Below are positions 6,655 through 64,000 of a stretch of 64,000 nt of DNA, piece by piece. The translations under genes were made by a program, and so were the position numbers. Origin of the DNA: Atriophallophorus winterbourni (lineage: Eukaryota; Platyhelminthes; Trematoda; Plagiorchiida; Microphallidae); contig JACCGJ010013258.1 in the NCBI GenBank assembly GCA_013407085.1, positions 62,001 through 126,000 of the forward strand. Reading direction: 5' to 3'. Below the pieces are notes generated by a model. It was not told the origin of the DNA. It worked only from the letters and a program-made list of their open reading frames with translations, and ran no database searches. Position 1 is the first letter of the stretch; the number at the start of each line of letters is the position of its first letter.

Positions 6655-7272
6655 AATAACATCACTTTTATTCGACAGTGAGCATTTATTTTATTCAATC
6701 ACTTACGTATTTCTCTTATCTCTGTTAAGTCTGTCGCGTGTTCAAAGAAGAAATATCACATATAAATATTCGCTTTTGAATCAATCAGTACAATAACACA
6801 AAAAGCAAAAACTTGGACTGTGGCTAAGTTCATCAATGAAGTGACGATGACCATATTTGAAGAGAGTTAGTTTCCCAAAATATTCGATATATCGTACCGA
6901 TATTTAATTTAAAAAAAACTGCAGAAAAGTTCAAGTGTGACGAAATGGAAAAAATGATAAAGAGATTGTCATCGAAGGTTTGGTTCCGAGGATATTCTCA
7001 TATTTAAAAAATTCCATCGCCATCACCAACCACATCCAGCAACTTGTCGCTACACGTCTCATTGTTTCACTCAACGGAAATGTTTCTTTTGACAGGAAGA
7101 TTGCCTATATATCGCAGTTCAAACATTTTAATCAATTGCGATACTACGAGATTTCTACCTGATTTAAGATCGAAGCAGAATTTGAATTGATACTCTAAAC
7201 ATTCATTATCTTACAAGATTTAACCATGCAAGCAAAAGAATAATAAAAATACATGTACAAAACTTTATTTGA
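6655..7272. repeat. Macro-repeat module D, longer copy
   Basis: Starts with sequence matching 1991-2110 and leads directly into the first unit of the module A tandem array, the same D-to-A order as at 26300-26478 and 31400-31570. Confidence 0.65.
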
Positions 7273-12280: not shown

Positions 12281-14450
12281 TTAAACGTAAATATTTGACA
12301 TGAAATGGCAGTGATTTTTAGTGTTTAAAAAATAATCGTTCAATCGTTTCGTTATCGGAAAAGATGGAAGGGAATGAGTGAGTTCATTAAGGTTGACGAA
12401 ATCCAGATGATGAACATTTAGTAGAATGTTTTGTGTAGTCAGACAACAATAAGCATGTTGCTTTCCACATCCCACATATCTTCCAAATCAAGCACTATTC
12501 GCATTCTCCCACTAATAGTGAAACACAAGCGAAGCCGAAATCTCAAATTGTTTTACTACGCAGAAAACAATGAAAGATACACATGAATATCTTATTTTGT
12601 AAAACCAAAAAACATCCTTATTTTCCAGGGTGTCTTGATTGCCACTTCGATTATATTTTGTATTGATTTCGTGATACAAAATAGGCTTCAAGCCGATATA
12701 GACCGATAGACCCATATAGATAAATTTCTCTGGAGATGGATTGACCCTCATGTTTCCGAAAATATTGTCGTTCGGATTGCTGTTATCAAATACTCCGCAA
12801 GCTCAAACAATCATAAGTTCGCCATGAACATTGACGAAACTTTCGGTGCTTCCTGATCCTCTAGTACCAGAGCCTAGGAATTAGCATAAGATCCTAAGGC
12901 GCGTAATTTTCTCGAATCCATATTAACTTTTCGAACTCTCACAATATTTATCGCACTTTTATATCCAACGAGCAACTGCAAAACCGTCAAACTGTTATCT
13001 TTATATGTCTGAGAATATCGAGAACTATTGATTGTTGACCGCTCAAAATATTCTAGATGGATATTGCGATCATTTGAGATGTGAATCGAATAATATTATT
13101 TTAATTGAATTAAATTCGAATATATTAGCGCATGTTGCGAAGCACATTCACCACGATTGCAAGACACGTGATTTCGTAGAATGTGCATAACTATGCCCTC
13201 CGGGATATCACAATATGGATGGAACGATGAATGGAGTGGCAACACGGTATGTTTCAAGTGACAATATTCGTCTTACACCATCCGATAAACTATAACGTAA
13301 CAAGTTTATTTTCAGATCTTATTTTTCGCACATTGTGATCTAAATTCAAGTCAACACCTTCATCCAAAATGATATTCGAAGTTTAATCGGTTCAGATTTC
13401 CTGTACGAACAATTTTACTGAAGTGATATAAACGCACTGAAAATCGACTTGACAAAATTGTAAGTAATTGACGTTGACTGCTCATTTAAAGGCTTGTTTA
13501 AAAGTGAGTATGTTTAATAAGGTAGGATAGAGTGAAAAGTTATGTATATATGATTATCATAAATGCTATGATGTTTGTGAATTTTTCGTAATTACAAATG
13601 CCACAACGGGTTTTTGGGAAAACTATTGGTTTTTTTATTTGACAATTGAAAGTATTTCAGAAAATTACACGGAAGTGTTAAATAAATTTTTAAATAACTT
13701 ACCAAAGCGTACTTTTTTGAAAGTTGGAGTGACATGGAAAAATGGATGATAATATTATATATTGAAAATGTTACTATTAGAGATGAACAAAGATGAATGG
13801 CTAAATGGTTAAAACGTTGCTCAATTCAATAGTCCCGAGGTTTATGTGTGAAATCCAAATGACAATGTTTGTAAATGCAATTGGGATTACACCATATGCA
13901 TATGCTCAGGCACGTTGTAATTGAAATCTTTGAACGCACAATACTGGTGAGTCCAAACAGCGCGAACATGACAATATGGGTGATGGAAATGCATGCAGAT
14001 ACGCTTTTTAATTCATGGTTAATGGGTGTAAACGTATCCACATGTGTTTTGTCTGATGCTAATTAACAAGTGGGTCGTACTAACCTTATCCAACAGTAAC
14101 AGTAGCAGTAACAACAACAAAAACAACCGTAACCTAGTCAGCCTCTAAAAATTTGTTGCAGACTTCCCGCGGTCCACTTTCATTATAAGGTTACTCGAAT
14201 TACGAATAAAGCAAGAATCCCATTGCCTTTTTTATAATCTAATTAGTAAGTGAATGGATAAATGAATGCGAACTGACATAAACTTTCACTGCATATAGTC
14301 GTATTTCCGAAAACATTAAGTACTATTATTCCGTTTATATGCAAACTTTGTCAAACGATTATTCCTTTTTAACTTCCTTGTTTTGTTCTGAATGTTGAAA
14401 AATTTCAAATCCGGAAATTTTCACTTTGTGCTCTGCACAAGTGAATACTA
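12281..14450. repeat. Macro-repeat modules B and C
   Basis: Module B (12281-13800) follows the last A unit without a break and contains the ACAATCATAAGTTCG and TTAGCGCATGTTGC landmarks. Module C (about 13800-14450) includes GGTGATGGAAATGCATGCAG and TTGTTGCAGACTTCC. It ends with a block (about 14170-14400) that matches 35870-36090. No gene is seen. Confidence 0.75.
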
Positions 14451-21689: not shown

Positions 21690-23009
21690 TGATATCAAGT
21701 GGCAGTTGACTCTTTGCGTCTTCTATTCCATAATCTTCTATGGTTCGAGGTCTAATATGGTTTACGTGTATAGCTACGTGTATACGACTGCAACTGATAC
21801 GTCACTGTGCCCAGACGACGTCCTATGGTACCTGAAATCAAATTCTCTCTCTTTCCGTAAAAGGACCTGGCATATAGTATATCACCTGCTCTATAGGATC
21901 CTCCATTAGTCTTTTCACCTGTATGCAGTCCAAAGTTTGACTGTTTTTATGTTCTGTGATTTTTGGTAGCTTGGCGCTGTGTATTGTTTTTAGTGGGCGG
22001 CCCAAAAAGAGTTCGGCAGGTTATTGTTTTCCTGGTAGCGATGGGTTTGGAGTTTTACGATACGCAAACAGGAAGGGATGCAGTTGTTCATTCCGCGTTC
22101 GTTCTCCTTCTAGCTACACAAATGCTTGTTTGAAATTATCTACAAAAGGTTCAGCGTCCCCATTGGATAGTAGATGATAAATGGGCGAATGCATGTGATT
22201 GATCGTGGGAAAGCACAAAAATCGGTGAAATCAGAAGAGGTAAACTGTGGTCCATTGTCAGTGACTAACGTTTCGGGAATGCCAAATTGAGAAAATAGCC
22301 TTTCGAAGATCGATATTGTAGAACGTGTCGTGATTCTATTCGTGGCATGAATTTCGGGCCATTTTCAATAGGCGTCAACAATGACCAAATAGTTTATCCC
22401 ATTCAAGGGTCCTTCAAATTCTGCATGATAACGTTTCCATGGTCCCGATGGAACAGGATAGGGCTGTGGTTCACATTTAGGAGGTCATTTGGCTGCTTCA
22501 TCGCAACTGTAGCATGAGCGCACCATGTTTTCAATATCACGGTCCATGAAGGGACAAAAGGCATAGTTCGGGCTGAGCGCTTTCATCCGACTGTTTCCAG
22601 GATGACCCTGAAGTAATTGTCGTAGAACAAGATGTTGTAGAGCTTCAGGAATGACTACTCGGTCGTGGAACATAAGACAGCCATCAACGATGAAAAGTGC
22701 GAATTGGCAAGTAGTTAACTGCTTGAGATATGGATCAGTGATTCTCTCAGGCCCGCCGTTTTGTTGGAATCGCATAACTTGTTGTAGTGTTCGATCGTTC
22801 GCGGTTGCCTTGCGAACTGTCGCTGCCGTTATTCGAAGATGTCTGACGCTTGCGTTAAAAACATGGTCCATCGGGTCTGCTGAAACAGAAGACACTACGA
22901 AGTTTACATTTTGGGATCGAAAACAAATGTCTGCAATGAGCCTCGAGAGTGCATCAGCGTGACCAGAGTTGCTGGTACACTTGTATCGGTGGTCAAAATA
23001 ATAAAACAA
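21690..23009 (-). pseudogene. Gypsy integrase, broken
   Basis: The N-terminal frame (22485-23009) has the HHCC zinc-binding region: HLVLRQLLQGHPGNSRMKAL and then a CYSC pair. The core continues from 22484 down: IVDAY (first Asp), LVTDNGPQF (second Asp), then after a frameshift NGDAEPFV, which holds the Glu of the D,D-35-E triad. Downstream are FAYRKTPNP and LFLGRP, usual for the C-terminal side of the core. A stop follows VDAY and several more lie downstream, so the enzyme is dead although all three triad residues can still be read. Confidence 0.85.
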
Positions 23010-23021
23010 TAATTGTGTTGC

Positions 23022-24018
23022 TCAGCGTTGTAGTCGATTTGCTGTATTTACATGTATTTTCTTCTCCGCTCCAAATATTGCCAACCATGGCTTATGATCT
23101 GTGAATAAGTTAAACTTTCGTCCGTAAATCATTTTATGGAACTTGTTAACGGCAAAGACGAAGGCCAACCCTTCTTTCTCGATCTGACTGTAGTTCCTTT
23201 CAGCAACTGTTAATGTTCTGGATACGTGCATGTTGGCTTTTTGTTTTTCATCAGGATACTTATGCAACAGTACGGCGCCGTTTCCATTTTGTGATGCATC
23301 TGCTGCAACGGTCATGGGTAGTTTTGGATCGTAGTATGCTATCAGTAGATCAGACGACAAGATATCCTTTATTCTTTTGAAGGAGCGCTGACATTCATTT
23401 GACCAATACCATTTGCTGTAGTTTGTTAATAGATAATTAAGTGGTGCTTATAGTTCGTGCATTTTTGGTACAAACTTATGATAATAATTTACCAGGCCAA
23501 GGAAAATCTGCAAGGTCAGTGTCTGGATCAGGTCGTCTACCTTCGTGAATAATTATTGTTCTCAAGTAGGTTATAGTGTCTGTCATAAGAGTGCATTTTG
23601 CTGGCCTGGCACCAAAACCGAAAAATTGATTTAAGTGATCATAATGTTCTTCGCGATTCTGGCTAGATACGGTGATATCATCCACACAGGCTTCAGCAAA
23701 GGATAATCCGCACAGCATAGTGTCCATTATTTGCTGAAAGATTACAGGAGCGCATTTGACACCGAAAGGCAGAAGATTATAACGGTACAACCCTTTGTGT
23801 GTGTTGATGGTTAGCAGCTCTTTTGATTTCTCACAAACTGGAAGATATAGGTATGCATCAGAGAGGTCAATCTTTGAAATAATGTTCCCACCATTGATCT
23901 GCGAGAATAGATCATCTAGGGTCGGTAAAGGATAATAGTGTGTCTCCAGTGATCCATTCAGGCCAAGGGAAAAATCTGTGCAAAGCCATAGTGTTCCATT
24001 TGGTTTTCTCACTGCCAC
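23022..24018 (-). pseudogene. Gypsy reverse transcriptase and RNase H, broken
   Basis: RT frame 23476-24018: MAVRKPNGTLWLCTDFS, YYPLPTLDDLFSQI, SKIDLSDAYLYLPV, YNLLPFGVKCAPVIFQ and ACVDDITVSS, whose VDD is the catalytic box with Cys where Tyr, Phe or Leu is usual. RNase H frame 23022-23360: MTVAADASQNGNGAVLLHKY with the first catalytic Asp, NYSQIEKEGLAFVFAV with the Glu, and FNLFTDHKPW with the next Asp. The RT thumb and connection (23361-23475) are frameshifted. Confidence 0.88.
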
Positions 24019-24280
24019 AATTGGTGAAGCCTATGATGAATATGTCACTGGACTCAAGACACCTTCCTTGACTAAGCGTTCTATTTCTTTTTTTCACAAC
24101 CTCCAACGCAAAATTAGCTACTGGACTCTTTTGACGAAAAACTGGACTTGTTTCCGGTTGTAAGCATAAGACTGCATGAGCTTTGATACAGAGGCCCAAT
24201 CCTTCACAAAATACCTTGAATATATCGATTGAAAATGACACATAAATCCTTTGCGCATCTAACTTCACTGGATTCAGAGT

Positions 24281-24717
24281 TTACACATTTTCGTCGGTGG
24301 CATGAGTAACTTTAGCAGAGTCATCGCAAACACTATTGAATGGTACATCCCATAGTTTGAGCTTTCCTATCCAGTCAATGCCCAAAAGATTTAGCTTGTC
24401 GTTAGCTGAAACATAGCATGTGCTGAGTAGATTTTGATCACGAAACTTGACCTTGCATTTCAAATCACCTAGAAATGTATATCTCCACCAGGAGCATTCT
24501 TGGCGATTCGAGCTGTTGAAATCATTGGTGGTTTCCCGATTACAATCCAAATCTGACGGGAAATAATGGTTATATCTGAGGCACTGACGATTTGCAATCT
24601 CACTGGATTGTCATCAATCTCGAAAGTGATGAATTTGCGCAGACTCTGGAATTGAGCACAATTTGTGACAAAAACAACATTTGAGGTGCGTCTGAATCGC
24701 GAAGTTTGATTTTGACG
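24281..24717 (-). pseudogene. Gypsy aspartic protease, catalytic Asp lost
   Basis: Downstream of the zinc knuckle, the frame 24469-24717 reads FITFEIDDNPVRLQIVSASDITIISR. Retroelement proteases have D-T/S-G/A-S at this place; here VSASD stands where DTASD is expected, so the catalytic Asp is replaced by Val. A second frame (24281-24550) carries KLNLLGIDWI, the usual end of the protease fold, so a frameshift lies within the domain. Confidence 0.7.
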
Positions 24718-25477
24718 ACAAAATTTTACCAGGTGGCCCGTTCGTCCGCATTTATAACAAGAAATCTCACGATGAGGTGGTCTACGTGTTTGATCAGAAA
24801 AAATGTGGACTAGAGCTGTGCTGGAATGCTCTTGTGATTCGATCATCTGTAGCTTCTTCATTCGAGAACGATGAATGGATCATTCCTGCATCACGTTTCA
24901 AGTTTATTAATCTCAAGTATTCAGCTGTTAGATCCCGTATGGATATTTCTGGAGTAGAAACAGGTTTTGCCACTGAACGTGTCCTCAATTCAGCGTCATC
25001 GGGTGAGGTCAATCCGACAACAAATATTAGAGCCTTAAACTTTGTTGATGTTAATTCGTTCAGTTGAAAGCGCTCACATTCCTGGCCCACACGACCGGCA
25101 TAGGTGACGATATCTCCACTGGAATACTTAGACAATTTTAGGCAATTATATCGAAAGATGAATATGAATGTTTGCTCCACAAAAATCAATTTTAACTTGA
25201 ACACTGTGTCAGACAAATTAAGTTTTCCTGAATGGTCTGGCAAGATTCAACTACAATAATGGCTGTGTTCTGAGGCACCAAGTTTTTTGCATTAAAAGGC
25301 GTACCTTAATTTGATCATCCAAAGCACCTACCTCTAAAAAAAGTATGTCTTCATATCGATCATACCAAGCACTAAAAGTAGCGCCGTTGTCTGAATCATA
25401 ATGGAATTCTTTGATGTTATTTGCAATCAAGTCTTTTAACTGATAAGTGGCGCTCACCGTGTATTGCGAAGTAGCCA
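24718..25477 (-). pseudogene. Gypsy gag with CCHC zinc knuckle, broken
   Basis: The first frame (25251-25477) starts at a TTG codon reading ATSQYTVSATYQLKDLI, with EFHYDSDNGATFSAWYDRYE, the capsid start typical of this Gypsy group. A second frame (24794-25243) continues with YNCLKLSKYSSGD and TKFKALIFVVGL. The zinc knuckle CYKCGRTGHLVKFC lies at 24718-24759. At least two frameshifts separate these parts. The missing ATG and the junction at the first codon suggest the 5' end was lost. Confidence 0.85.
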
Positions 25478-40059: not shown

Positions 40060-40720
40060 GATCCGAATGCACTGAATTTAGACTTGACAAGATTTACGAC
40101 ATTACGATTCACTACTCTTTTTTATACTTGTTTATACATAATACATTTTCAACGAAGGAATAATAATGAGATTGATGGAATACAGTGAAAAGATAACAAC
40201 CTATGACTTTCAGAAATCCTAGAATTTTATATTTTAAAATTATATTATATTATCTTTAAAAGGTGGACAATTTCCGACAATATAACTGAAGAATTACTTG
40301 GAGGTTGAATATCAATGATATCATAGTCTCGAAATGTTATAATTCACAGAAAAAGAAAGATAGACGGTGAAATGGCGGGATAGATGAATGTATGGATGTG
40401 TTACAAATGATAAATATATGTTCCTTCCAACACTAGCAAATTAATCAGTCGAACATGAAAATTATGGGTTTGTGTTGAATATGAATATTGACTTTTTAAG
40501 AAGAAAAAGAAGGCATTATTTTTTAATACAAATTTTCAGCAAATCAAACTAACTCCACCACACAAATTTTTCGACGCGAATAATGAATATGACAGAAGAG
40601 TTAAACAATAATTGGTAAAATTAGGATTTCAAGTAGAGGGGGTTCGGAGAGTTATAATGTTTTCAGCTACTCATGAGTACCAATTCGCTTGAACTTTCCC
40701 AAGGTGGTCCATTAATGGAA

Positions 40721-40765
40721 GCACTGGACTCGAGTTTCGCTCTCATTAGAGCTCATCAGCAGTGC
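40721..40765 (-). ncRNA. Hammerhead ribozyme, type I, subfamily A copy 1
   Basis: On the minus strand, GCACTG (stem I) is followed by core CTGATGA, stem II GCTCT/AGAGC with loop AATG, core GAAA, a minimal stem III (AC/GT with loop TCGA), cleavage triplet GTC, and CAGTGC closing stem I. All core bases are canonical. Beyond an internal loop, stem I can add GGA:TCC pairs using flanking bases. Predicted cleavage follows the C of GTC. Identification rests on direct pairing by eye. Confidence 0.92.
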
Positions 40766-40783
40766 ATATCCGTGCTTGGTCTG

Positions 40784-40794
40784 GGATTTGAACC
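40784..40794 (-). promoter_or_regulatory. Pol III B box of subfamily A copy 1
   Basis: Minus strand GGTTCAAATCC, a match to the tRNA B box. The A box TAGCCGAATGG lies upstream at 40827-40837 on the same strand, at tRNA-like spacing. Confidence 0.8.
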
Positions 40795-40826
40795 CGGGAC
40801 CGTCTGATGCGGGGCTAATGCCTTAA

Positions 40827-40837
40827 CCATTCGGCTA
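40827..40837 (-). promoter_or_regulatory. Pol III A box of subfamily A copy 1
   Basis: Minus strand TAGCCGAATGG fits the TRGCNNARYNGG consensus. The surrounding tRNA-like region keeps a D-arm-like GCC/GGC pair but the T stem has a mismatch, so it is a promoter relic rather than a tRNA gene. Confidence 0.8.
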
Positions 40838-40968
40838 TCCCGCCACGTTCTGCTGACTGGACTTATCCAATGTGAACACAAGCGACTTGGTTTTTCTTTT
40901 TCTCACAAGCAGGGGTGCCCGACGAATTTTTCGGAAGGGGTAGCCGGTAACCGCATCAGACGGTCCCG

Positions 40969-40979
40969 GGTTCAAATCC
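40969..40979 (+). promoter_or_regulatory. Pol III B box of subfamily A copy 2 (A box lost)
   Basis: GGTTCAAATCC. This unit starts at 40951 inside the tRNA-like region, so its own A box is missing. Transcription of this unit would have to start elsewhere. Confidence 0.75.
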
Positions 40980-40997
40980 CAGACCAAGCACGGATAT

Positions 40998-41042
40998 GCA
41001 CTGCTGATGAGCTCTAATGAGAGCGAAACTCGAGTCCAGTGC
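40998..41042 (+). ncRNA. Hammerhead ribozyme, type I, subfamily A copy 2
   Basis: Stem I GCACTG (40998-41003) pairs with CAGTGC (41037-41042). Core CTGATGA is at 41004-41010, stem II GCTCT/AGAGC at 41011-41015 and 41020-41024, GAAA at 41025-41028, and GTC at 41034-41036. Predicted cleavage is between 41036 and 41037. Identical over the 45 nt to the minus-strand copy at 40721. Confidence 0.93.
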
Positions 41043-41343
41043 TTCCATTAATGGACCTCCTTGGGAAAGTTCAAGCGAATTGGTACTCATGAGTAGCTGA
41101 AAACATTATAACTCTCCGAACCCCCTTTACTTGAAACCATAACATATGCCCTTTGGATAATGACGCGAGATGCGGCGTTCCTTCTGGGAAAACCTGACTG
41201 CGGAGTGATCGGTTGGGAGACCGTGGACAGTTGCCGGCTACCCCTTCCGAAAAATTCGTCGGGCACCCCTGCTTGTGAGAAAAAGAAAAACCAAGTCGCT
41301 TGTGTTCACATTGGATAAGTCCAGTCAGCAGGACGTGGCGGGA

Positions 41344-41354
41344 TAGCCGAATGG
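41344..41354 (+). promoter_or_regulatory. Pol III A box of subfamily A copy 3
   Basis: TAGCCGAATGG, followed by TTAAGGCA. The B box starts 43 bases downstream, within the usual range for an internal tRNA-type promoter. Confidence 0.8.
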
Positions 41355-41386
41355 TTAAGGCATCGGCCCCGCATCAGACGGTCCCG

Positions 41387-41397
41387 GGTTCAAATCC
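41387..41397 (+). promoter_or_regulatory. Pol III B box of subfamily A copy 3
   Basis: GGTTCAAATCC in the tRNA-like region directly before ribozyme copy 3. Confidence 0.8.
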
Positions 41398-41415
41398 CAG
41401 ACCAAGCACGGATAT

Positions 41416-41460
41416 GCACTGCTGATGAGCTCTAATGAGAGCGCAACTCGAGTACAGTGC
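41416..41460 (+). ncRNA. Hammerhead ribozyme, subfamily A copy 3, core mutated
   Basis: Same layout exactly 418 bases after copy 2, but the conserved GAAA reads GCAA (41443-41446) and the cleavage triplet reads GTA instead of GTC. GTA still fits the NUH rule. The A to C change is in an invariant core position and should abolish cleavage. Stems I, II and III are intact. Confidence 0.88.
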
Positions 41461-42904
41461 TTCCATTAATGGACCTCCTTGGGAAAGTTCAAGCGAATTC
41501 ACATTCAATTCCAAAAAAATTCGATTTTATCTACACCGGTATTATGCGTTTCGATGGAAGAACGAAGTAGACAAAAACAACACAGCAAAAGTCGATGGGG
41601 CTTTCACTGGCATTGTTTTTCAATTAAATTTCATGGAACCTCATATTAGTTGTATTATTTTAGGATTGCGTCAGAATTAGAGTTCGGCATTTCATGGTTA
41701 CCACTCTTACGTAGACATTCAAGAAAGGCTTGCAGTTTCAACTGTCACGTGGTGCTTCACCGCACATTTAGCAAGATAATTAATTTTGCGATTGACAATA
41801 AATTAATGTTCTGCGGTGACATCAGCATTCAACCTTGCAACATTTTCAAAATACCCAGCATTTGAAAATACGGGAAATACCAAAAATATAGGATATCAAC
41901 GTTATTAATTCGCTCACTTGTTTCCGTCGCTAAAATATAAATAAAGTTATACGGAGTCAAACCCCACGAATAATCGGCCTCATAACAAAATATAACATAT
42001 GAGTATGAAATGAAGTTGGCATACTAAACGTTCTTCATGTTATGTTTTCTTTGTAGAATATCCCTGCATTCTCAACTAGAAATGAGCTTTACATATGTTA
42101 AATTTATGAAATCATCAGTAGCATTCGCACGTTTCGCTGAATAACCGACATACGCGTGCCTAACTTGAAGCTCATGTGGTTCAGTATGGAATAGAAGAGT
42201 CGGCTATTTTCTCGAATAAACAACAGATCCGGCGTACTAAATCTTTACTATACAGCCGTCAGACGTAGACAAACCACGTTAGACGCAAATGAAAGCAAAT
42301 TTCTTTCTATTGCAGCTTTAAAATAGGTCGCGAATGGAAAAAATAACGATGGATATATTGCTTTTTAAATCTGGTGTGCAAAGCATTTCCCCAATACCAT
42401 GAATGCGTCGCTTTGGTCGGCTGGGTCACGTGTACAGCACTGCACGTTTGATTTTTCAAACGAGACATGAAATCTCGTTAGAACGGTTCTATGAGTTCTC
42501 AGGGGACATTTATTTATCCGATTGTGAATAGGTATCTGTCTTCACGAGCATATGTATAACAGAGTGTGTTTCAGCATATGTGAGTGAACAGGTTGGTTGT
42601 GCATAACTGATCCGACAGTGACATACAAGCCGAACGTGTTAACCATTCCTAAAATGTTTCAAACGGATCTGGCTCCTGATCCAACTGCCCCAACCGGACA
42701 AACAACAAATAACTGGACGTGGTGTGTGTGTGTGATTGACATGCATGACAATGAGCAGCAACATATATTGGTTGTTTATAATCGCCTTGTGTGCTGACCA
42801 AAAATTACTCTGTTTATTTTTGTACTTTATAATGGTGATTCCTTTCAAGAACTATAATTAACCGTGTCATAAAAATATACTTGTGTTAATCCTTGTGTTA
42901 ATAG

Positions 42905-50327: not shown

Positions 50328-52164
50328 AACGAATTCAATCTCGTAAAATTAGTTTGTCGCCGTCGGTGGAACATGGTCGTGCCACAAAACGGAACGAGGT
50401 TTCGTGCTACGAAACATTTTCCAATGAATGAAAATTGTGATCAAGAAGCTACAGTGTATCTCACAGCGCTCAGAGCGATGAAAAGTACAGGGTTGATCAG
50501 AATCATTTACCCACTGGCGAAGAGATGTGCGTTCCACAGAGAAGAAATGTATATCCACTTGTTAAAGATGAATTACACAGTGTATTCAAAGTGAGTGGTG
50601 GAGCACATGCTTTTCTGAAGTCGTAGGGCGAACGTCGAGAGATTTCATATCTGTTTTTTGAAATCACTTTTACCGCAAGTGTGGTCCGCCTAAAGTTTGA
50701 CTTCCTGAATTCAACTCACCCTAGTGTAAATCTTTGGGAACACGACCATTTTGAGTGCAATTTCAAGATTTCGTGGCCAAAAAATGAGAACCAACTGATA
50801 AACATGATACGTTCATCTCGCTGGATGTGCCAGTGGTCAATTTAGTTCATAGTATCATTAAATGTTTATACCAAGAAACAAACGCTACTTTAATTTTTTT
50901 CCCGGGAAATGTTACACTTTTACTCATGTCAGTTGAGCAATATTCTAAAACCTTATTGGCAACGAAATAACTAACAGATTCAATACAAAAGGATTTAATG
51001 ATACATGAATAAGCATGCAAAATATAACACTATTTTTTTAATAAAATGAGTAATCTGAGCTTCATATGAGAAAAAAAAGCAACGTGAAATCAAGATCGTT
51101 GCTACACACTTAATCAACTTCACGCTTACTGTTGACCTTTGAAGATGACGGTGCACAGAACGCACCATACAACTGAATGACCTACAATACGGAGGTGAAT
51201 CAGTCTTTTTTTCTTCGTGGTTCGCACTTATTGATTAGAGACAGTACGATCGGGTTTCGCTGAAGCTTGCAACAGCTGCACATGTTGGTCACTTTTGGAT
51301 GAGGTTGTTACGATTAACCTGTTTAATCGCATATGTCGCAACATATAAAGATTTGGTTTATACCAATGCTGATTTACAAATTGCACATTTGCATGCGATT
51401 CCATCACACACACACTGATCAGGTAGGGACAGTACCATCAGGATACGCATGCGATTGAAACAGTGCGAGAGTGTTAGATTTTCACATTTGTGATCCACTA
51501 TTGCTTTATGTTGGTAAAATCAACCTGTTCAATCACGTCTATCCAAACACATGTCGTTCGGTATTAAACACATGAACATAAATAACCATTCGTTTTTACA
51601 TGAATATACATCTTTCACAGACACACCACGACCAGTTTTGTCCTGTTTGCACTTATCAGGTAGGGATAATATGATCACAATCAGCATGCGCTTGGCACAG
51701 TGCAAATTTGTAAAAATGTGCGCGTTCAGGTCACAAATGGATACGTTTTGTGCGAGCAGTCTGATCATGTATGTGTGGCTAACCTAATTCAAAAGTGCCA
51801 TACATGCGCAGCTGGTCAACTGGATGAGCTTCCGTATGTTTACTGATAAATTTGTAAAAGGTTGCAACGTTATTTCGATTATCCGTGATTGTAGGATGTT
51901 CAATCTTATTTGAATCTTCATAAAGAATATGACTTTCGAATTTCTAGTAATATGTGCGGGAGATTTGAGGAACACTTTATTTGGTCCTGAAACCTAATTT
52001 TTAATATCAACTAAAGGATGTTAAGGTCAATTTTAGAGCGCCTAACCCAAAACGTCTATGAGAAGCCTTTCGTGGTTATCGTCAGATCACAGCGGTACCG
52101 GGTTGAACATTGTTTAAAATAATTCGCAAGTGTTTCAATGATTACCTATACAAATATCCTTGTC

Positions 52165-52195
52165 TGCACCTGATGAAGGCAAACAGCCTGAAATT
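52165..52195 (+). other. Hammerhead-like core in tandem unit 1, degenerate
   Basis: CTGATGA is followed by AGGC-AAACA-GCCT, a possible stem II, and then GAAA, matching the core order of a hammerhead. I cannot find a good NUH cleavage site with a closing stem I, so activity is unlikely. A related string (CCGATGACGAAAACAGTC) lies at 52399. Could be chance or an old ribozyme relic, for example from a Penelope-like element. Confidence 0.35.
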
Positions 52196-54825
52196 AGTTT
52201 GAGTGTGTAAGAGCACCACAATGTATTGGTCGTTTTTAAGCGCCTTGCGGGCTTGCCCGGGAATGTTTTTTGTGAGTCTGTATTCGAACACGGCGGTTCT
52301 TTTTAACAACAAGATTTTACCGTGGAATGCACATATTACATTGTTTAGCAATTATCCAGAGATTCTATGGTCACTGGACCAATTACCCCTGTCTCCACCC
52401 GATGACGAAAACAGTCGGACGCCGGTAGTGGCTTACAAAGATTGGTCACTTGAGCAACAAAATTTCAATTTAATGTAAACGTTTGTGGTTTCTACTTCTT
52501 TACAAGGAGAGAAATGAATGCTCGCTAGAAACCAATCAGAGATAAAAGTCCTCAAATAAAACGTTGTATACTATAGAAGAGGTCGAACCCTATTTCAGTT
52601 TACGTACTTCGAATGAATGGTTAACGGCTTTAACTGGATTCTACGAATTTCAAAGCTTGCTAATCAATCCTGTTCTGTCTAAATTCAATAACATTCTCAT
52701 TTAGGCCACACTGCAAATCACTGCATACATGTTGCCTAATCCCACTGAAAGGAAATTACACTATCAAATTCCAGTGTTTTTCTCCGATGATGTTGTTGGA
52801 TAACTGATTATTTTCTGTAAACACAATTATATGCAATAGTTCTACAGAATAATTATATACTACAGATAATAATCGTTTATGTTTTGCGCACGCATAGTTT
52901 TTGCGATGAATGGATTTCTTTGTAGTCCCTAAATGCTGTGTACTGATCACAGAACCCATAGATTCGCGGATAATGAGACTATTTTTTATTGAACGAATTC
53001 AATATCGTAAATTTAGTTTGCCGCCGTCGATGGAAGATGATTGTGCTACAAAACAACGAGGGTTTTGTGCTACGGAACGTTTTCGAATGACTAAAATTGT
53101 GATTAATAAGCTACACTGTATCTCACAGTGCTCACAGCGATGAAAAGTACAGGGTTGATCAGCATCAGTTACCCACTGGCGAAGTGATCTGCTTTTCGCA
53201 GAAAGAAATGTATCTCCACTTTTGTATGATGAACTACACAGTATATCCGAAGTGCGTTGTAGAGCACATGATTTTCTGAAGTCGTAGGGCGAAAGTCGAG
53301 AGATTTTATATCTGTTTTTCGAAGGCACTTGTACCGCAAGTGTGGTCCGTCTAAAGTTTGACTTCCTGAATTCAACTCACCCTAGTGTAAATCTTTGGGA
53401 ACACGACCATTTTGAGTGCAATTTCAAGATTTCGTGGCCATAAAATGAGAACCAACTGATAAACATGATACGTTCATCTCGCTGGATGTGCCAGTGGTCA
53501 ATTTAGTCTATAGTATCATTAAATGTTTATACCAAGAAACAAATGCTACTTTAATTTTTTTCCCGGGAAATGTTACACTTTTACTCATGACAGCTGAGCA
53601 ATATTCTAAAACCTTATTGGCAACGAAATAACTAACAGATTCAATACAAAAGGATTTAATGATACATGAATAAGCATGCAAAATATAACACTATTTTTTA
53701 ATAAAATGAGTAATCTGAGCTTCATATGAGAAAAAAAGCAACGTGAAATCAAGATCGTTGCTACACACTTAATCAACTTCACGCTTACTGTTGACCTTTG
53801 AAGATGGCGGTGCACAGAACGCACCATACAACTGAATGACCTACAATACGGAGATGAATCAGTCTTTTTTTCTTCGTGGTTCGCACTTATTGATTAGAGA
53901 CAGTACGACCGGGTTTCGCTGAAGCTTGCAACCGCTGCACATGTTGGTCACTTTTTGATGAGGTTGGTACGATTAACCTGTTTAATCGGATATGTCGCAA
54001 CATATAATGATTTGGATTAAACCAATGTTGATTTACAAATTGCACATTTGCATGCGATTCCATCACACACACACACTGATCAGGTAGGGACAGTACCATC
54101 AGGATACGCATGCGATTGAAACAGTGCGAGAGTGGTAGATTTTCACATTTGTGATCCACTATTGGTTTAGGTTGGTAAGATCAACCTGTTCAATCACGTC
54201 TATCCAAACACATGTCGTTCGGTTTTAAACACATGAACATAAATAACCATTCGTTTTTATATGTATATACATCTTTCACAGACACACCACGACCAGTTTT
54301 GTCCTGTTTGCACTTATCAGGTAGGGATAATATGATCAGAATCAGCATGCGCTTGACACAGTGCAGAATTTTAAACAACTTGCGCGTTTATGCCACAAAT
54401 AGATAAGTTTTGTGCGAGCAGTCTGTTCAACTACGTGTGGCTAACCTAATTCAAAGTGTCATACATGCGCAGCTGGTCAACTTGATGAGCTTCCGTATGT
54501 TTACTGATAAACTTGTAGAATATTGCAACGTTATTTCGATAATCCGTGATTGTAGGATGTTCAATCTAATTTGAGTTTTCATTAAGAATATGACTTTCGA
54601 ATTTCTAGTAATATGTGCGGGAGATTCGAGGAACACTTTATTTGGTCTCGAAACCTAATTTTTAATATTAACTGAAGGATGTTAAGGTCAATTTTAGAGC
54701 TCCTAACCCAAAAGGTCTATGTGAAGCCCTTCGTGGTTATCGTCAGATCACAGCGGTAGCGGGTTGAACATTGTTTAAAATAATTCGCTACTGTTTCAAT
54801 GATTACCTATACAAATATCCTTGTC

Positions 54826-54856
54826 TGCACCTGATGAAGGCAAACAGCCTGAAATT
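54826..54856 (+). other. Hammerhead-like core in tandem unit 2, degenerate
   Basis: Same motif as at 52165: CTGATGA, AGGC/GCCT hairpin, GAAA. The second related string is at 55058-55085. The third unit ends before this point. Confidence 0.35.
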
Positions 54857-56859
54857 AGTTTGAATGTGTAAGAGCCCCAAAATATATTGGTCGTTTTTAA
54901 GCGCCTTGCGGGCTTGCCCGGGAATGTTGTTGTGAGTCTGTATTCGAACACGGTGGTTCTTTTTAACAACTAGATTTTAGCGTGGTATGCACATATTACA
55001 TTGTTTAGCAATTATCCAGAGATTCTATGGTCACTGTACCTATTATCCCTGTCTTCACCCGATGACGAAAACAGTCAGACGCCGGTAGTGGCTTACAAAG
55101 ATTGGTAACTTGAGCAACAAAATTTCAATTTAATGTAAACGTTTGTGGTTTCTACTTCTTTACAAGGAGAGAAACGAATGCTCGCTAGAAACCAATCAGA
55201 GATAAACGTCCTCAAATGAAACGTTGTATACTATAAAACAGGTCGAAACTTATTTCAGTTTACGTACTTCGAATGAATGGTTAACAGCTTTAACTGGATT
55301 CTACGGATTTCAAAGTTTGCTAAACAATTCTGTTCTATCTAAAGTCAATCAAATTCTAATTCAGGCCACATTGCGAATCACTGCATACATGTTGCTTAAT
55401 CCCACTGAAAGAAAATTACACTATCAAATTCGAGTGTTCTTCTCCGATGATGTTGTTCGATAACTGATTATTTTCTGTAAACACAATTATATGCAATAGT
55501 TGTACAGAATAATTATATACTACAGAGAATAATCGTTTATGTTTTGCGCACGCATAGTTTTTGCGATGGATGGATTTCTTTTAAGTCCCTTAATGCTGTG
55601 TACTGATCACAAAACCCATAAATTCGTGGATAATGTGAGACTATTTTTTAATGAACAAATTCTATATCGTAAATTTAGTTTGCCGCCGTCGATGGAAGAT
55701 GATTTTGCTACAAAACAACGAGGGTTTTGTGCTACGAAACGTTTTCGAATTAACAAAATTGTGATTATTAAGCTACACTGTATCTCACAGTGCTCACAGC
55801 GATGAAAAGTACAGGGTTGATCAGCATCAGTTACCCACTGGCGAAGTGATCTGCTTTTCGCAGAGAACAAATGTATCTCCACTTGTGTATGATGAACTAC
55901 ACAGTGTATCCGAAGTGAGTTGTGGAGCACATGCTTTTCTGAAGTCGTAGGGCGAACGTCGAGATATTTCATATCTGTTTTTCGAAGGCACTTGTACCGC
56001 AAGTGTGGTCCGCCTAAAGTTTGACTTCCTGAATTCAACTCACCCTAGAGTATATCTTTGGGAACACGACCATTTTGAGTGTAATTTCAAAGTATGTGAG
56101 CAACACATCACTTCGACCGTTTTCCATTCGTAAAACCGCACACTATTCTTGGCCATTGAATGAGTACCCACTGATAAACATGATACGTTCATCACGCTGG
56201 ATGTGCCAGTGGTCAATTTAGCTTATAGTAGCAATAAATGTTCATAAGGAGAAACAAACTCTCCTTTAATTAATTTTTCCCGTGAAATGTTACAATCCCT
56301 CTCATGAAATGCTACAGCTGAGCGATATTCTGAAAATTTTATTGGCCACGGAAGAACTAGCAGATTTAATAGAAAAGGATTTGATGATACATGAATAAGC
56401 ATACAATATATAACACTATTTTTTTAATAAAATGAGTAATCTGAGCTTCATATGAGAAAAAAGCAACGTGAAATCAAGATCGTTGCTACACACTTAATCA
56501 ACTTCACGCTTACTTTTGACCTTTGAAGATGGCGGTGCACAAAACGCACCATACAACTGAATGACCTACAATACGGAGGTGAATCAGTCTTTTTTTCTGT
56601 GCGGTGCGCACTTATTGATTAGAGACTGTACGACCGGGTTTCGCTGAAGCGTGCAACCGATGCACATGTTGGTCACCTTTGGATGAGGTTGGTACGATTA
56701 ACCTGTTTAATCGCATATGTCGCAACATATAAAGATTTGGTTTAAACCAATGCTGATTTACAAATTGCACATTTGCATGCGATTCCATCACACACACTGA
56801 TCAGGTAGGGACAGTACCATAAGGATACGCATGCGATTGAAACAGTGCGAGAGTGGTAG

Positions 56860-59214
56860 ACGAAATATTTATATTTCATACATTTCGGGTAGTGAAAAGG
56901 TTTTGAGAAAACTATTTTATTCTTCATTATATATTGTTAAATGTCCAAGCATAAAAAATAAATAACTTGTACTATTGTAAGCTAAGGGACTTCGACTTCA
57001 AGCCAGTATAGTACATGAGTAAAAATTAGAATAAATGTTCCTCAATATCAATGTTACCGATAATATACGTATAATTAGCAGATGTGAGAACTACGCTGAG
57101 ATTAAATCGCAGATTTGTTTAAAGCGTCAACGTTGATGATTGCAATCGCTTCGAGGACACTGTATGCATGTTTGTCCACGTCGGAGTTAGTGTTTCACAA
57201 CACTTTTCAATTACGATCCTGTTCATAATCAAGGTTAATCCATTCTAAGAATAAATAAACCTGTCTAATTTACATACGTGATTTTTATTCGCACAACTAT
57301 CTATCGAACATGACAATATAGGTTACAACTTTATCTGACCCTAAAATAGTACCGGTCGGTAATCTTCATATAGTCATAACGTTGAGATGGTTTAACTGAT
57401 TCTAATGAATTTCATATCGTTTGTGTGCGGTTAGCGCCCCCAAATTAAACATGTTCCTAATTATGGCGTATATGGAACCATTCACAAGAAATTACGGATC
57501 ACAAACTGTCACGTTTTTGCTAATATTGTGCACCTAGGTTTACTGCTCTTGTTTAGGGTTGTATGGTGATTTTATAGACCTCATCTGCAAGTGGTGATTA
57601 CCATATGTGTCCTGCGTACCTGAGACCAAATATATTTGATCACAGCTACTTATAAGTAGTAATTGTTGCAATTATCTGTAATAACGCACATTTCCCCCAA
57701 AAATGTCAGTTTTGGTGTTCTATTTAACAACCCATCCTGAAATTATGTACGATTTTTTGAAAAATTTCGATTATTACAAAGAAAAGGAGGAGAAAATAGA
57801 AAAAGATAAACAAACAACATTTAAACACTATTGGTATTTCTAGCGGGACACCAATGTTAAATAACATGAACGAAATTTTCATATATCGTGCATAGAAATA
57901 ATCATGTAAAATTTATTTATCATCCGAATTAAATTTATCTTCAATGTATTTGAAAGAATTCATCTAAATATATATTTTGGTTCATAAGGAAACAAGGCAT
58001 TCCCCAATGAAGACTTTGCATGAGGTTGAAAGACGTGCTACGATTGTTTCACTGAATTTGCTTATCATTGATAAGGTTGTTTTGCAGCTCCTATGATGTA
58101 ACATTCGGTCTAATGTCAATACAAATAACTCTGGAAATAGGGATAATAGAATGATGACCCACTTCGGTAGATGTCGGCCATGGAGGTACAATACAATCGC
58201 ATGATATTTTTCATGTTCCACAGCTTTTCAAATGAATAAGCTTTGCGATTCTAGAGGAACAATCTTTCTCACAGGAAATGCTACCATAAGCAGTATTAGG
58301 TCGTTCGTCGTCAGTTGCATGCCAGCAATTTGATTTGCGTTCAGCGTAGAATACCGCAATTTTCAAAGAATATATTGCTAGCTTAGAGTCAATTTTGCTA
58401 GGAGTATAATAATAAAAGCATATTTTTCTAACCGAACAGAATATTTCTTCAATTAGTATTCGTCTGAAATTTTTTGTGCGAGAGCTGAGACTTAAGATGA
58501 GGTGACTTTCGTTTCATTAGCATTGTATTTCAGTGTTCCACAAATTCAAAACTTTGAATAAATTAAAGCGCCAGTTCTATTTCCATGAATGATATTGCAA
58601 CTAGCAACTACATTCAATAATGGTCGGGTATTCGGAGGCGTGTCTTTAGGAAAATATCAGTGTCCAAGCAATAAACTTGATTTATTTACCTCATGAAATT
58701 GCTCTATAGATAAATGCAATGCAAAAGATATATGAAACCAAACCTTATCCTTTCTCAGACGGGCTTGGGACCGTCCTTGGCGGAGTTCATTGAATATCAC
58801 TACTATAGAAAAAAATCAATATTCAAAAATTTATATGGTCACGAATAACCACTTAGCTTAACAATTATCTGATCGTTGTCTAGATTCGAACCGGGGAAGA
58901 GTAACCATATAATGTAACATATAATCCAGTTGAATAATTACTGTGAGTTATTGAGCAGCTGTCGTCAAAGCGTTATGTAACAAATACGTGTTCAAATTTC
59001 GAGTGAGCGTTGCTAAGTTTGGGGCGAAAAACAATAGTTCCCAGGAGGGCAATACATAGGAAACAGAAACGTAAATAATGAAAAATCGGCAATAGTTAAT
59101 TTGGAAATGAGGAAAATGACGAAAAGTCATTGACATTTTCACGAAGATATAGGTCATCGCCCATTTGCGCACTTCACGCATACAAACTATTCGAATCCGG
59201 ATCCAAGATACTGC
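56860..59214. other. Unassigned segment
   Basis: Bases 58130-58340 hold the short dispersed repeat also present near 15640. A B-box-like string lies at 58883 on the minus strand, but without an A box. No gene is recognised. Confidence 0.35.
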
Positions 59215-60489: not shown

Positions 60490-60876
60490 GTGCTCCCTGT
60501 ATTCAAGGCAAATTCGCCACTACTTCAAGGTGGACCACACATCAATATTATGCTTAGGGCCAAGCAAAACTTTGATGAATATAAACCACCCCATGGTTTA
60601 TACACTTATCACCCCGTCCACAGACAATTCCCGGTCACATCTGACCCATTTAGCAAAATTATTCCTTCCCATAGTCCGTTCTCTCCTCAGCATTCACGTC
60701 CTCACTATCCCTCTTCAAGACCCTACCATTTTCCACTTCAATACGAGTCAGGTACCCTAGATCAGCGTACCTTCATGAACGGGAAGCCGTTTAATACATA
60801 CCTAAACCTTTTTCAAACCAGGTATATAATGATGCAAAATTTTCCTCTTCATTACCAAAACCCTTACTTAAATTAA
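60490..60876 (+). pseudogene. Proline/serine-rich linker region of the non-LTR element
   Basis: A 128-codon frame rich in Pro, His, Ser and Tyr (SPFSPQHSRPHYPSSRPYHF) with no known domain. Its end overlaps in another frame the start of the endonuclease reading frame (FSNQVYNDAKFSSSLPK), so a frameshift lies near 60810. It may be the C-terminal part of ORF1 or the N-terminal part of ORF2. Confidence 0.45.
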
Positions 60877-61634
60877 CAACATCAATTTTAGATCACTCAT
60901 GTAAATCACTTCCGGTTACACAGGTTAAGCATCCTATAATTAATCTTCTATTATTTACTGCACGGTCGATTATCTCTAAGCTTCTTACCCTTCAACATTT
61001 CTTGATCTCAAACCCGTACGAAATAGTTCTCATCACAGAGACGTGGGCATCTCGTGACATTCCCAACGTTTCACTTGAACTAGCCAACTATTTCATGTTT
61101 CGTAAGGACCGCACTCACACCCGTGCTAGTGGTATTCTCATTTATGTTAATACAGATTTTGCTGCAGAAATATACAGCTCTCATATGTTAGAAGATCTAG
61201 ATGACTCAATTTGGATCACCATACCCTCTCTTGATGCTCTCATATGGTGTATCTATAACCCACCATCTCCTTCCACACTCACTATTGATAAGCTTATAAA
61301 TGTGTTTACTGAGGCATCCGTTGCCCCTCCCAGCAATAAAATTATTGCTGGGGATTTCAACATGCCATGCATCAGCTGGAAATACCCCCACATTTCGAAC
61401 AGATTTTCAGCATTCGCTAAAACGATTAATCTTTTAGGTTTCACACAATCTGTGAGTAAGCCTACAAGACTGTCCAGCATTATAGGCTTGATCTTCACTC
61501 TAGGTACCGATCCCAGCAACGTTGAAATTTTAGTTCCACTGCCCGGTTGTGACCACAACATGGTCACTTGCGTTCTGCGACTTTTTCGGAAGCCGGCATA
61601 TATTCACAATGATGAGAAAATTTATATCAACTGA
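60808..61634 (+). pseudogene. APE-type endonuclease domain of the non-LTR element
   Basis: The frame is open from just after a stop near 60795. Motifs: INLLLFTARSIISKLL, where elements of this type usually have N-A-R-S (Asn replaced by Thr); EIVLITETWAS with the catalytic Glu; SGILIYVNTDF; NKIIAGDFNMPCISW with the GDFN block; then GLIFTL where DL-FT is usual; and PGCDHNMVTCVL with the catalytic Asp-His pair. The ORF ends at 61634. The domain is recognisable over its whole length but two usually conserved residues are changed. Confidence 0.8.
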
Positions 61635-61639
61635 ACTAA

Positions 61640-62195
61640 TTTTTCGAATCTTCTCAGAGACAAAGACCGGACTGAATTTTTCCTTTCTTCAGACTTTAAT
61701 CGTATTTCTTCGATTTTCCATGATAACCTCTTAGCATGCCTTCGAAGTTCGTCTACCTCTCATATCAAAAGAAGTAAACGAAACCCCATAACCCTTCTCG
61801 AAAAAAAGATTGATCGTCTCTCTACTTCTGCGAATCATAAGTTTGACTCCTCCTCTGTTATACGCCGACATGAGCTATGTAACTCTCTCTCAGGTATTAA
61901 ATTCCGCCTCCTAGAGCGTCAAGAAAGGAAGGCTTTTAGCAAACTCAAAGACTAAGTCTTCGAATTGTCTTACGAAGAATATATGTACCTCATTAAAACG
62001 TGACATTTATTCAATTATTTATCAAAAAGATAATGAGGATCTAGTCACTACTGATCCGCCCACAATAAGTCAGGCTTTCTCTTCATTGTTCAGCAGCTCA
62101 TTTAATATTAACATTTACCATCCATTGGCAAACAATAGCGTTCCCATAAATACTATTGACTCCTTTACTTTGACTTTAAGATAAATAAAAGAGAT
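61640..62195 (+). pseudogene. Linker between endonuclease and RT, broken
   Basis: Translations in shifting frames show KRNPITLLEKKIDRL, RLLERQERKAFSKLKD, then DIYSIIYQKDNEDLVTTD and PTISQAFSSLFSSSFNIN. This is the usual segment just before RT in CR1/Jockey-like elements (basic helix, then an ...AFSSLFSS block). Stops occur after KLKD and elsewhere. The element ends before the first RT motif. Confidence 0.65.
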
Positions 62196-62238
62196 TTCCC
62201 GTCGAACGCTTAATTGCGATCGGTCAAACGGTGGACGG

Positions 62239-62249
62239 TAGCCCAGTCA
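62239..62249 (+). promoter_or_regulatory. A-box-like element of subfamily B unit 1
   Basis: TAGCCCAGTCA followed by TTAAGGCATGG. A weaker match to the A-box consensus than in subfamily A; position relative to the B box (about 44 bases) is normal. Confidence 0.6.
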
Positions 62250-62282
62250 TTAAGGCATGGGACTACAATGGTGATGGTCGGG

Positions 62283-62293
62283 GGTTCAAATCC
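62283..62293 (+). promoter_or_regulatory. Pol III B box of subfamily B unit 1
   Basis: GGTTCAAATCC, identical to the subfamily A B box. Confidence 0.78.
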
Positions 62294-62312
62294 CACCCGA
62301 AGCGAAGGATAT

Positions 62313-62357
62313 GCACTGCTGATGAGCTCAAATAAGAGCGAAACTCGAGTCCAGTGC
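62313..62357 (+). ncRNA. Hammerhead ribozyme, type I, subfamily B copy 1
   Basis: Stem I GCACTG/CAGTGC, core CTGATGA, stem II GCTC/GAGC with loop AAATAA, core GAAA, minimal stem III AC/GT with loop TCGA, triplet GTC. Predicted cleavage is after 62351. Compared with subfamily A, stem II is one pair shorter with a larger loop. The flank after stem I reads TTACATT, which loses the outer GGA:TCC pairing. Confidence 0.92.
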
Positions 62358-62475
62358 TTACATTATGGACCGTCGTGATCAACTTTGTGAATCGTTCGAT
62401 GGGCTTGGCACGGATGAGTAGTCACAAACATAAAACAAAACAACATATTCTCCAAAAATGGCTTAAACAAAAATG

Positions 62476-62519
62476 CCCATCAGATCTAATCGGTGTTAGC
62501 TTACACCGTATCTGATGGG
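62476..62519 (+). ncRNA. Predicted stable hairpin in the subfamily B monomer
   Basis: CCCATCAGAT (62476-62485) pairs with ATCTGATGGG (62510-62519). Inside it, CGGTGT (62491-62496) pairs with ACACCG (62503-62508), leaving a six-base loop. In the circularised monomer this would be a second structured domain besides the ribozyme. Subfamily A has related but diverged sequence at 41147-41190. Confidence 0.6.
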
Positions 62520-62670
62520 AAGACCTGACGCGGAGATCTGTTCGGTTGGGCGACCACAACAGATGTTGCTGGCTCCTTCTGAACTGGTCGGGCAAACAAA
62601 GCTACTCAAATGTGCCAGTCTGGAGAACAGTTCATAAACGCTTAATTGCGATCGGTCAAACGGTGGACGG

Positions 62671-62681
62671 TAGCCAGTCGT
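62671..62681 (+). promoter_or_regulatory. A-box-like element of subfamily B unit 2
   Basis: TAGCCAGTCGT, one base shorter than in unit 1, which explains the 431 rather than 432 base spacing of the ribozymes. Confidence 0.55.
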
Positions 62682-62713
62682 TAAGGCATGGGACTACAAT
62701 GGTGATGGTCGGG

Positions 62714-62724
62714 GGTTCAAACCC
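62714..62724 (+). promoter_or_regulatory. B box of subfamily B unit 2, one change
   Basis: GGTTCAAACCC instead of GGTTCAAATCC. Confidence 0.65.
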
Positions 62725-62743
62725 CACCCGAAGCGAAGGATAT

Positions 62744-62788
62744 ACACTGCTGATGAGCTCAAATAAGAGCGAAACTCGAGTCCAGTGC
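62744..62788 (+). ncRNA. Hammerhead ribozyme, type I, subfamily B copy 2
   Basis: Same core, stem II, stem III and GTC triplet as copy 1. The outermost stem I pair is lost (ACACTG against CAGTGC), but the outer GGA:TCC pairing is kept. Predicted cleavage is after 62782, giving a 431 nt monomer from copy 1 to copy 2. Likely active or weakened; the core is canonical. Confidence 0.9.
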
Positions 62789-62895
62789 TTCCATTATGGA
62801 CCGTCGTGATCAACTTTGTGAATCGTTCGATGGGCTTGGCACGGATGAGTAGTCACAAACATAAAAAAACATATTCTCCAAAAATCGCTTAAATA

Positions 62896-64000
62896 AGCAA
62901 TGTACTCGTCATGGGGTGTGTGCGATGGCTAGTCATATTACTGTTGAACTTTCAATCAAATAATTTAGTTGTTTTCCTAAGTATTTTCATGAACATGCAT
63001 TCCATTTTTCGTTAGCGTTTTCGCCCGCTTGATGATATGTTTAAAATAATACTACTGCCAGGAACTTGGGTGGACCCTAAACGTTCTTTTGGGTTGTTTG
63101 AGCTAGCACAAACTGCGCTCTAAGAATATCAGAGTTAGAACTTACTACCGAACCAAAGCATGACATGTTATCAACCAATGAAAGATTACCGACTTGAGCG
63201 TCCAAAGGATCCTTTTGTTCGTGTTCAGTCGTTTTCTTCGACGATTTTTTCAGTTTCCCTCATGTGCTCGAACGAAGCCAATTGAGTGCTGTAACCGACA
63301 ATTCGGTCCGGGTTAAATCGAGTTAAACGTCAACGATTTCACTCTGGATATAAACACCAATGTGTCTATCCAACGGTTGAGTGACGCGTCAAGTATTCTT
63401 TCATAACTAGTATTTGAATTTATCATTTTATGTACGAGGGACCGTGAAAATTCTTGCCATTGCTGCATTGTCCTCGTTTAATTTATTTCATTGAAACTAA
63501 CTTTATTCATATTCTCCAGCAATTATTATGCCGCTGATCTGGCAAACTTGGAGTATGTTGTAGATGGCAGCAAAGGGATGTGGAGATTTGCATCATGTTT
63601 TTAATACACGTGAAGTTATTACCCTAACTTACACAGAAGAAAAATTGAGATACTCAATTATTCAGCAGATTTGAATCAACACAGATTTCAATAAAAAATG
63701 CAACGCTATTTGTGACAAATACAATTGCTTTAATGTAGCAAACAAATCATTTTCAATGTTCCGCGTGTTTAATACGATAAATCTAGGCTGGGCAGAAAAA
63801 GTGAGTCATCAACAGAAAACAAATTCGAACGAACAACATTGAATACCACATGAATCTAAATCTATACATACCCTTTTCAACTTACCCAATCGCTTTTTGG
63901 AGCAGGGCCTTTGAATCGGCCATGCTCAAAATTATTGTTTTCATGCGTTTTTATTTTTTCAGTCAACAAGGTAACTTTTGTTTTTGAAGCGGTTTAACAT
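62896..64000. other. Unassigned segment
   Basis: No RT or other coding motif continues from the non-LTR element on either strand. A short match (CTACCGAACCAA, GACATGTT, CAACCAATGA) to 44955-45000 lies near 63150. Nothing else is seen. Confidence 0.4.

Follow-up and report, generated by a model that had tools for sequence, protein, structure and literature searches.

A probable non-autonomous retroelement with tRNA-like heads and tandem type I hammerhead ribozymes

The closest described counterparts of the repeats analysed here are the SINE-like elements Sm-alpha and Sj-alpha of Schistosoma (blood flukes), short non-coding repeats that likewise join a tRNA-derived head, reported for Sm-alpha, to a type I hammerhead ribozyme (PMC2770079, PMC8490949). 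Of 2,368 tRNA-Gln-TTG-like sequences in S. mansoni, 2,342 were assigned to SINEs that resemble Sm-alpha, and about 38,500 candidate hammerheads came out of a motif search (PMC2770079). Because Sm-alpha has been published as a tRNA-derived SINE with a hammerhead (PMC2770079), a tRNA-headed hammerhead element is already in print. Metazoan non-LTR retrozymes are described as tandem type I hammerhead repeats of 150–450 bp, a range into which our 418- and 431-nt units fall, with RNAs of about 170–400 nt, slightly shorter than these units (Cervera and de la Pena 2020; PMC7229834). According to a 2020 review they seem to be promoterless and to have no motif that would indicate a partner element (PMC7761336), whereas the units described here carry A- and B-box-like motifs. 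Penelope-like elements with hammerheads have a very short stem III and a tandem arrangement in common with our repeats (PMC7761336), but the unit here is non-coding. The Rfam family Hammerhead_HH9 (RF02275) shares the stem II GCUC/GAGC and the core (36.3 bits, against a gathering score of 52), and the tandem repeat context sets our units apart from it. The topology here is type I, in contrast to the type III hammerheads within LTRs that characterize plant LTR retrozymes.

On these features we class the element as a further tRNA-headed hammerhead SINE of the Sm-alpha kind or as a metazoan retrozyme, a kind already known. Our analysis suggests with fairly high confidence that both loci arose by insertion of a single non-autonomous retroelement that has two diverged subfamilies, A (418 nt) and B (431 nt), and an Sm-alpha- or retrozyme-like cycle. 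Transcription of retrozymes in animals and the reverse transcriptase that mobilizes them are open questions, and within the literature searched a single paper paired retrozymes with RNA polymerase III, a study of tRNA- and 5S-bearing LTR elements that touches on retrozymes in passing. Both questions become testable here through the complete A and B boxes of one subfamily, the intact ribozymes and a copy that is probably twin-primed.

Hammerheads and tRNA-like heads at two loci

The window, that is, the whole 64-kb stretch of DNA analysed, holds two repeat loci: locus A, which extends over 40621–41499 by BLAST, and a better preserved sister array, locus B, 21 kb away. The parts of locus A are as follows.

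40621–40951, minus strand: inverted retrozyme-like copy, unit A positions 243–418 and then 1–155 (BLAST)
40721–40765, minus strand: type I hammerhead with intact core (RF00163 35.0 bits, E 5.1e-05; strict scan)
40784–40794, minus strand: B box of the minus head, GGTTCAAATCC
40821–40837, minus strand: A box of the minus head, TAGCCGAATGGTTAAGG
40951, no strand: inversion junction, where the minus copy meets the plus copy with no spacer (BLAST ends, alignments)
40951–41499, plus strand: plus copy of 549 nt, 1.31 tandem units with a period of 418 (BLAST)
40969–40979, plus strand: B box of the first plus unit, with no A box upstream (alignment, pattern)
40998–41042, plus strand: type I hammerhead with intact core, predicted cut at 41036/41037 (RF00163 35.0 bits; strict scan)
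41344–41400, plus strand: tRNA-like head, A box at 41344–41360 and B box at 41387–41397 (RF00005 20.9 bits)
41416–41460, plus strand: hammerhead with GAAA changed to GCAA and GUC to GUA, probably inactive (fails the strict scan)

Locus B comprises the following.

62205–62893, plus strand: sister array of 689 nt, 1.6 tandem units with a period of 431 (BLAST of unit B, alignments)
62239–62293, plus strand: first tRNA-like head, A-box-like motif degenerate, B box intact (RF00005 16.7 bits, below gathering)
62313–62357, plus strand: type I hammerhead B1, intact, predicted cut at 62351/62352 (RF00163 37.4 bits, E 8.3e-06)
62671–62724, plus strand: second tRNA-like head (motifs; no Rfam tRNA match listed)
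62744–62788, plus strand: hammerhead B2, intact, predicted cut at 62782/62783 (RF02275 35.3 bits at 62745–62787, below gathering 52; strict scan)

Three sites in the 64-kb window score above the gathering threshold of the type I hammerhead model RF00163 (34 bits), and a below-threshold Rfam search adds two matches to RF02275, at 41408–41473 (+; 29.6 bits against a gathering score of 52) and 62745–62787 (+). A strict scan, which required the core together with stems I, II and III of 5, 4 and 2 bp, recovered four of these five hammerheads and no other site in the window, and it gave no hit in 100 simulated windows from a first-order Markov model. Four of the five hammerhead cores are therefore intact by the strict scan, and three of the five exceed the RF00163 gathering score. 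All three motifs that the earlier note had claimed for locus A were recovered within 40721–41460 by Rfam and sequence patterns, and two of them, at 40721–40765 (−) and 40998–41042 (+), pass the strict scan, in keeping with its count of two canonical cores. The third, at 41422, has the core GCAA instead of GAAA and the cleavage triplet GUA instead of GUC. A GUA triplet can still be cleaved, but more slowly, and loss of the invariant A13 should disable the hammerhead core; with A13 changed to C, this second plus-strand hammerhead of locus A is probably inactive. Patterns of these hammerheads gave no match in viral contigs and prokaryote genomes, a search from which records near the window were possibly excluded.

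A third hammerhead family, considered for the core-like string CTGATGAAGGCAAACAGCCTGAAA at 52170–52193 and 54831–54854, was rejected, as it fails the strict scan. This string has no proper stem III or cleavage triplet and no Rfam entry at E up to 10, and both copies sit within a repeat of about 2660 bp. Elsewhere, 58738–58792 (−) gives a weak match to the type-P1 twister ribozyme (27.4 bits against a gathering score of 67.2, E 0.12).

The B box GGTTCAAATCC ends 18 nt upstream of each of the three locus A hammerheads, where the earlier note had given about 15 nt, and the proposed association of a B box with every motif stands; at locus B, the hammerheads start 19 nt after the B box. The pattern GGTTC[AG]ANNCC has five matches on both strands of the 64 kb, and all five are heads of loci A and B, while the looser pattern GTTC[AG]ANNC has 21 matches. 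Every one of the five units thus has a B box, and an A-box-like motif accompanies four of them, being degenerate in both B heads; these A-box-like motifs were searched with a pattern derived from the same heads. As proposed, two of the three locus A motifs have A boxes (40837–40821 on the minus strand and 41344–41360 in the second plus unit), and the first plus motif has none because the plus repeat starts between the two boxes, at 40951. The tRNA model RF00005 scores 20.9 bits at the A head (41344–41400) and 16.7 bits at the first B head, against a gathering score of 29, and there is no RF00005 match to the other tRNA-like heads among the Rfam matches listed for the loci. ARAGORN found no tRNA gene at the window. 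These sub-gathering scores, the ARAGORN result and the degenerate A boxes of locus B count against the retroelement explanation. On reading the sequence, the A head has a canonical-looking D arm, and both B heads lack the D-loop GG. We find here the arrangement of an Sm-alpha type SINE, in which a tRNA-derived head with pol III boxes lies ahead of a hammerhead, and the earlier proposal of retrozyme-like tandem hammerhead units with a tRNA-type promoter finds support in the sequence.

The heads also bear on whether the repeat is a described Sm-alpha or Sj-alpha element or its direct ortholog, new only in this species and with the same mechanism as our preferred explanation. The T arm of unit A presumably resembles tRNA-Pro, which speaks for this identity, but the D arm of the A head, which we take to be of the Ser/Leu type, speaks against it. 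A tRNA-Gln origin is reported for Sm-alpha, and the heads here presumably look otherwise. The tRNA-Gln-TTG-derived SINEs of S. mansoni resemble the hammerhead-bearing Sm-alpha family, and about 650 of 951 S. japonicum tRNA pseudogenes derive from tRNA-Pro-CGG, which is not linked to Sj-alpha there (PMC2770079). Compared by length, however, the element W36.2_W001, described as strongly similar to SMalpha, has 335 bp against 418 and 431 (PMC8490949); unit length may, as the earlier note put it, set the repeat apart as a separate family. We consider an identity with Sm-alpha or Sj-alpha rather unlikely.

Architecture of the arrays and origin of the inversion

The plus copy of locus A consists of BLAST pieces at 40951–40987, 40988–41405 and 41406–41499, which correspond to unit positions 382–418, 1–418 and 1–94. 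An exact 418-nt period had been claimed for the plus strand and is borne out by cores at 41004 and 41422; the accompanying description of tandem plus-strand units holds for this step, although the array is just 1.31 units long. The sole complete plus-strand head (41344–41400) is followed by the mutated hammerhead and then, at 41525, by a TTTT. The minus copy has a complete head with an intact hammerhead downstream of it, and the first T4 on that strand lies at the repeat edge (plus-strand AAAA at 40617). The earlier note had locus A making 418-nt RNAs, which its architecture does not support: the intact plus-strand hammerhead has no A box and the complete head precedes the mutated one, so efficient production of such an RNA would not be expected. 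By the same token, this copy should yield few or no reads that join 41454 to 41037. Locus A is, from its sequence, a damaged insertion and a poor source of unit RNA.

An inverted 5' part followed by a forward 3' part is the twin-priming pattern of target-primed insertion known from LINEs. The minus copy matches unit A at 97.7% over 176 nt and 97.4% over 155 nt, and locus A is probably a twin-primed insertion by LINE- or Penelope-type machinery. Since the plus part exceeds one unit in length, twin priming here would have required a circular or multimeric template. The inverted half could instead stem from a second, independent insertion or from an artefact of assembly; the 2–3% difference between the minus copy and the plus unit is what separate copies might show, and no convincing target-site duplication was found at locus A, but the halves adjoin at 40951 with no intervening base and in the very arrangement that twin priming produces, and we regard this alternative as doubtful. 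Flank comparison revealed no convincing target-site duplication at either locus: exact flank matches of at least 6 nt comprise one at locus A (6 nt, off the boundary) and, at locus B, one of 7 nt off the boundary and one of 6 nt at the left edge, which belongs to the element itself.

At locus B, the cores lie at 62319 and 62750, a step of 431 nt. On the sense strand, the interval 61938–62971, which spans both heads and both cut sites, is free of TTTT (the neighbouring ones are at 61934 and 62972). TTTT is absent from 3.4% of random 418-nt stretches of the window and from 0.5% of 689-nt stretches, and also from 44% of mononucleotide shuffles of unit A and 41% of those of unit B; because the window is T-richer and shuffled units are often free of TTTT, its absence is a weak argument that pol III reads through. 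Of the two loci, B is the better candidate for the source of a circle.

The same structural data bear on a further explanation, in which the loci are satellite DNA that is no longer transcribed, its hammerheads and tRNA boxes being relics and its copies having been multiplied and inverted through DNA recombination. One of five hammerheads is broken, one of five units has no A box, no convincing target-site duplication is present, and recombination can create inversions. However, arrays of just 1.31 and 1.6 units, intact ribozyme cores in four of five cases and a strict B-box match in all five argue against a satellite, which we judge improbable.

Next to array B, at 60795–62184, lies a LINE endonuclease ORF (Exo_endo_phos) on the same strand, together with an open stretch to 62184 that ends just before about 62205. 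A tblastn search for a continuation of the LINE behind the array gave no match beyond 61784 with 131 retroelement proteins, which are possibly too distant. Given this lack of a match, a LINE–retrozyme fusion or a truncated LINE is possible next to the array; an array interrupting the LINE is possible as well.

Relationship of the two units and predicted RNA folding

Whole-unit identity between A and B is 56% with gaps counted; it peaks at 89% in the final 38 columns, where the hammerhead core lies. The central block, outside the head and ribozyme, reaches a local score of 99, whereas none of 1000 mononucleotide shuffles exceeded 50, and on this alignment evidence the A and B bodies are homologous outside the ribozyme and the head. 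The GC content of the window is 36.7%; it is 51.0% in unit A and 47.3% in unit B, a value below 50% being a trait of metazoan non-LTR retrozymes. A 5S rRNA origin of the central block, as in SINE3, was also considered and rejected, no 5S match being listed at E up to 5 for either locus.

The two circles differ in predicted structure. A 431-nt B circle is predicted to fold at −138.7 kcal/mol, 4.4 SD below 100 dinucleotide shuffles, none of which reached so low a value, and the predicted fold of the A-unit circle is unremarkable (z −0.7, with 22 of 100 shuffles folding as well). Single 45-nt hammerheads favour an alternative fold by 3.5 to 5.8 kcal/mol, a result that counts against the retroelement explanation. 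Two copies of B1, by comparison, pair through the 8-nt palindrome ACUCGAGU into a structure of −34.9 kcal/mol in which both hammerheads are canonical, while one copy alone folds at −12.7 kcal/mol. This modelled dimer would fit dimeric cleavage. A review regards dimeric self-cleavage as a possibility for the minimal hammerheads that Penelope elements carry (PMC7761336), and axolotl retrozymes are described as needing dimers for higher cleavage rates (PMC7229834).

Proposed cycle and neighbouring retroelements

The case for one retroelement at both loci rests on the hammerheads, the strict B boxes at all five heads and the homology of the A and B bodies; on the minus and plus copies that adjoin at 40951, with long pieces 97–98% like unit A; and on the absence of TTTT in B, the fold of the B circle and that of the B1 dimer. 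In the cycle that we propose, RNA polymerase III would start at the tRNA-like head and read through the unit into the next, and the hammerheads would cleave the RNA at one site in every unit, probably most readily in dimeric form, the very short stem III of each lying within the palindrome ACUCGAGU. A host ligase could then circularize the unit, and a LINE- or Penelope-type reverse transcriptase would copy the circle for more than one turn and insert the product at an arbitrary phase. The metazoan retrozyme model in print is this same cycle with no promoter (PMC7229834; PMC7761336).

More tentatively, the element may represent a distinct clade of promoter-carrying retrozymes, in which the circle itself contains a tRNA-like pol III promoter, immediately ahead of the ribozyme, and locus A arose by twin-primed, target-primed reverse transcription on a circular or multimeric template made by the ribozyme; we hold this to be possible, if somewhat short of an even chance. 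If it is true, every circle would re-insert its own promoter, which lies inside it, and locus A would point to LINE or Penelope machinery.

Other retroelement sequences occur in the window. A Pfam scan that covered 10 of the 25 listed ORFs matched retroelement domains in six of the ten (reverse transcriptase, RNase H, integrase, zinc knuckle or endonuclease). Three protein searches gave 11, 855 and 0 proteins, with 120 of the 855 listed, and the organisms among those listed are a coral, fishes, a turtle, a crustacean and a snail, which form no consistent group. The domains and these protein matches suggest that the genome is that of an animal, and the likeness to Sm-alpha raises a mere suspicion of a flatworm. 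At 22485–24879 (−), separate ORFs carry an LTR-retrotransposon-like zinc knuckle, a reverse transcriptase, an RNase H and an integrase zinc-binding domain. A repeat at 50542–56755 is present in three copies spaced by about 2660–2725 nt, each with a reverse transcriptase match (at about 50570, 53220 and 55780), and a further repeat, at 7254–12291, comprises five copies at a spacing of 952–1015 nt.
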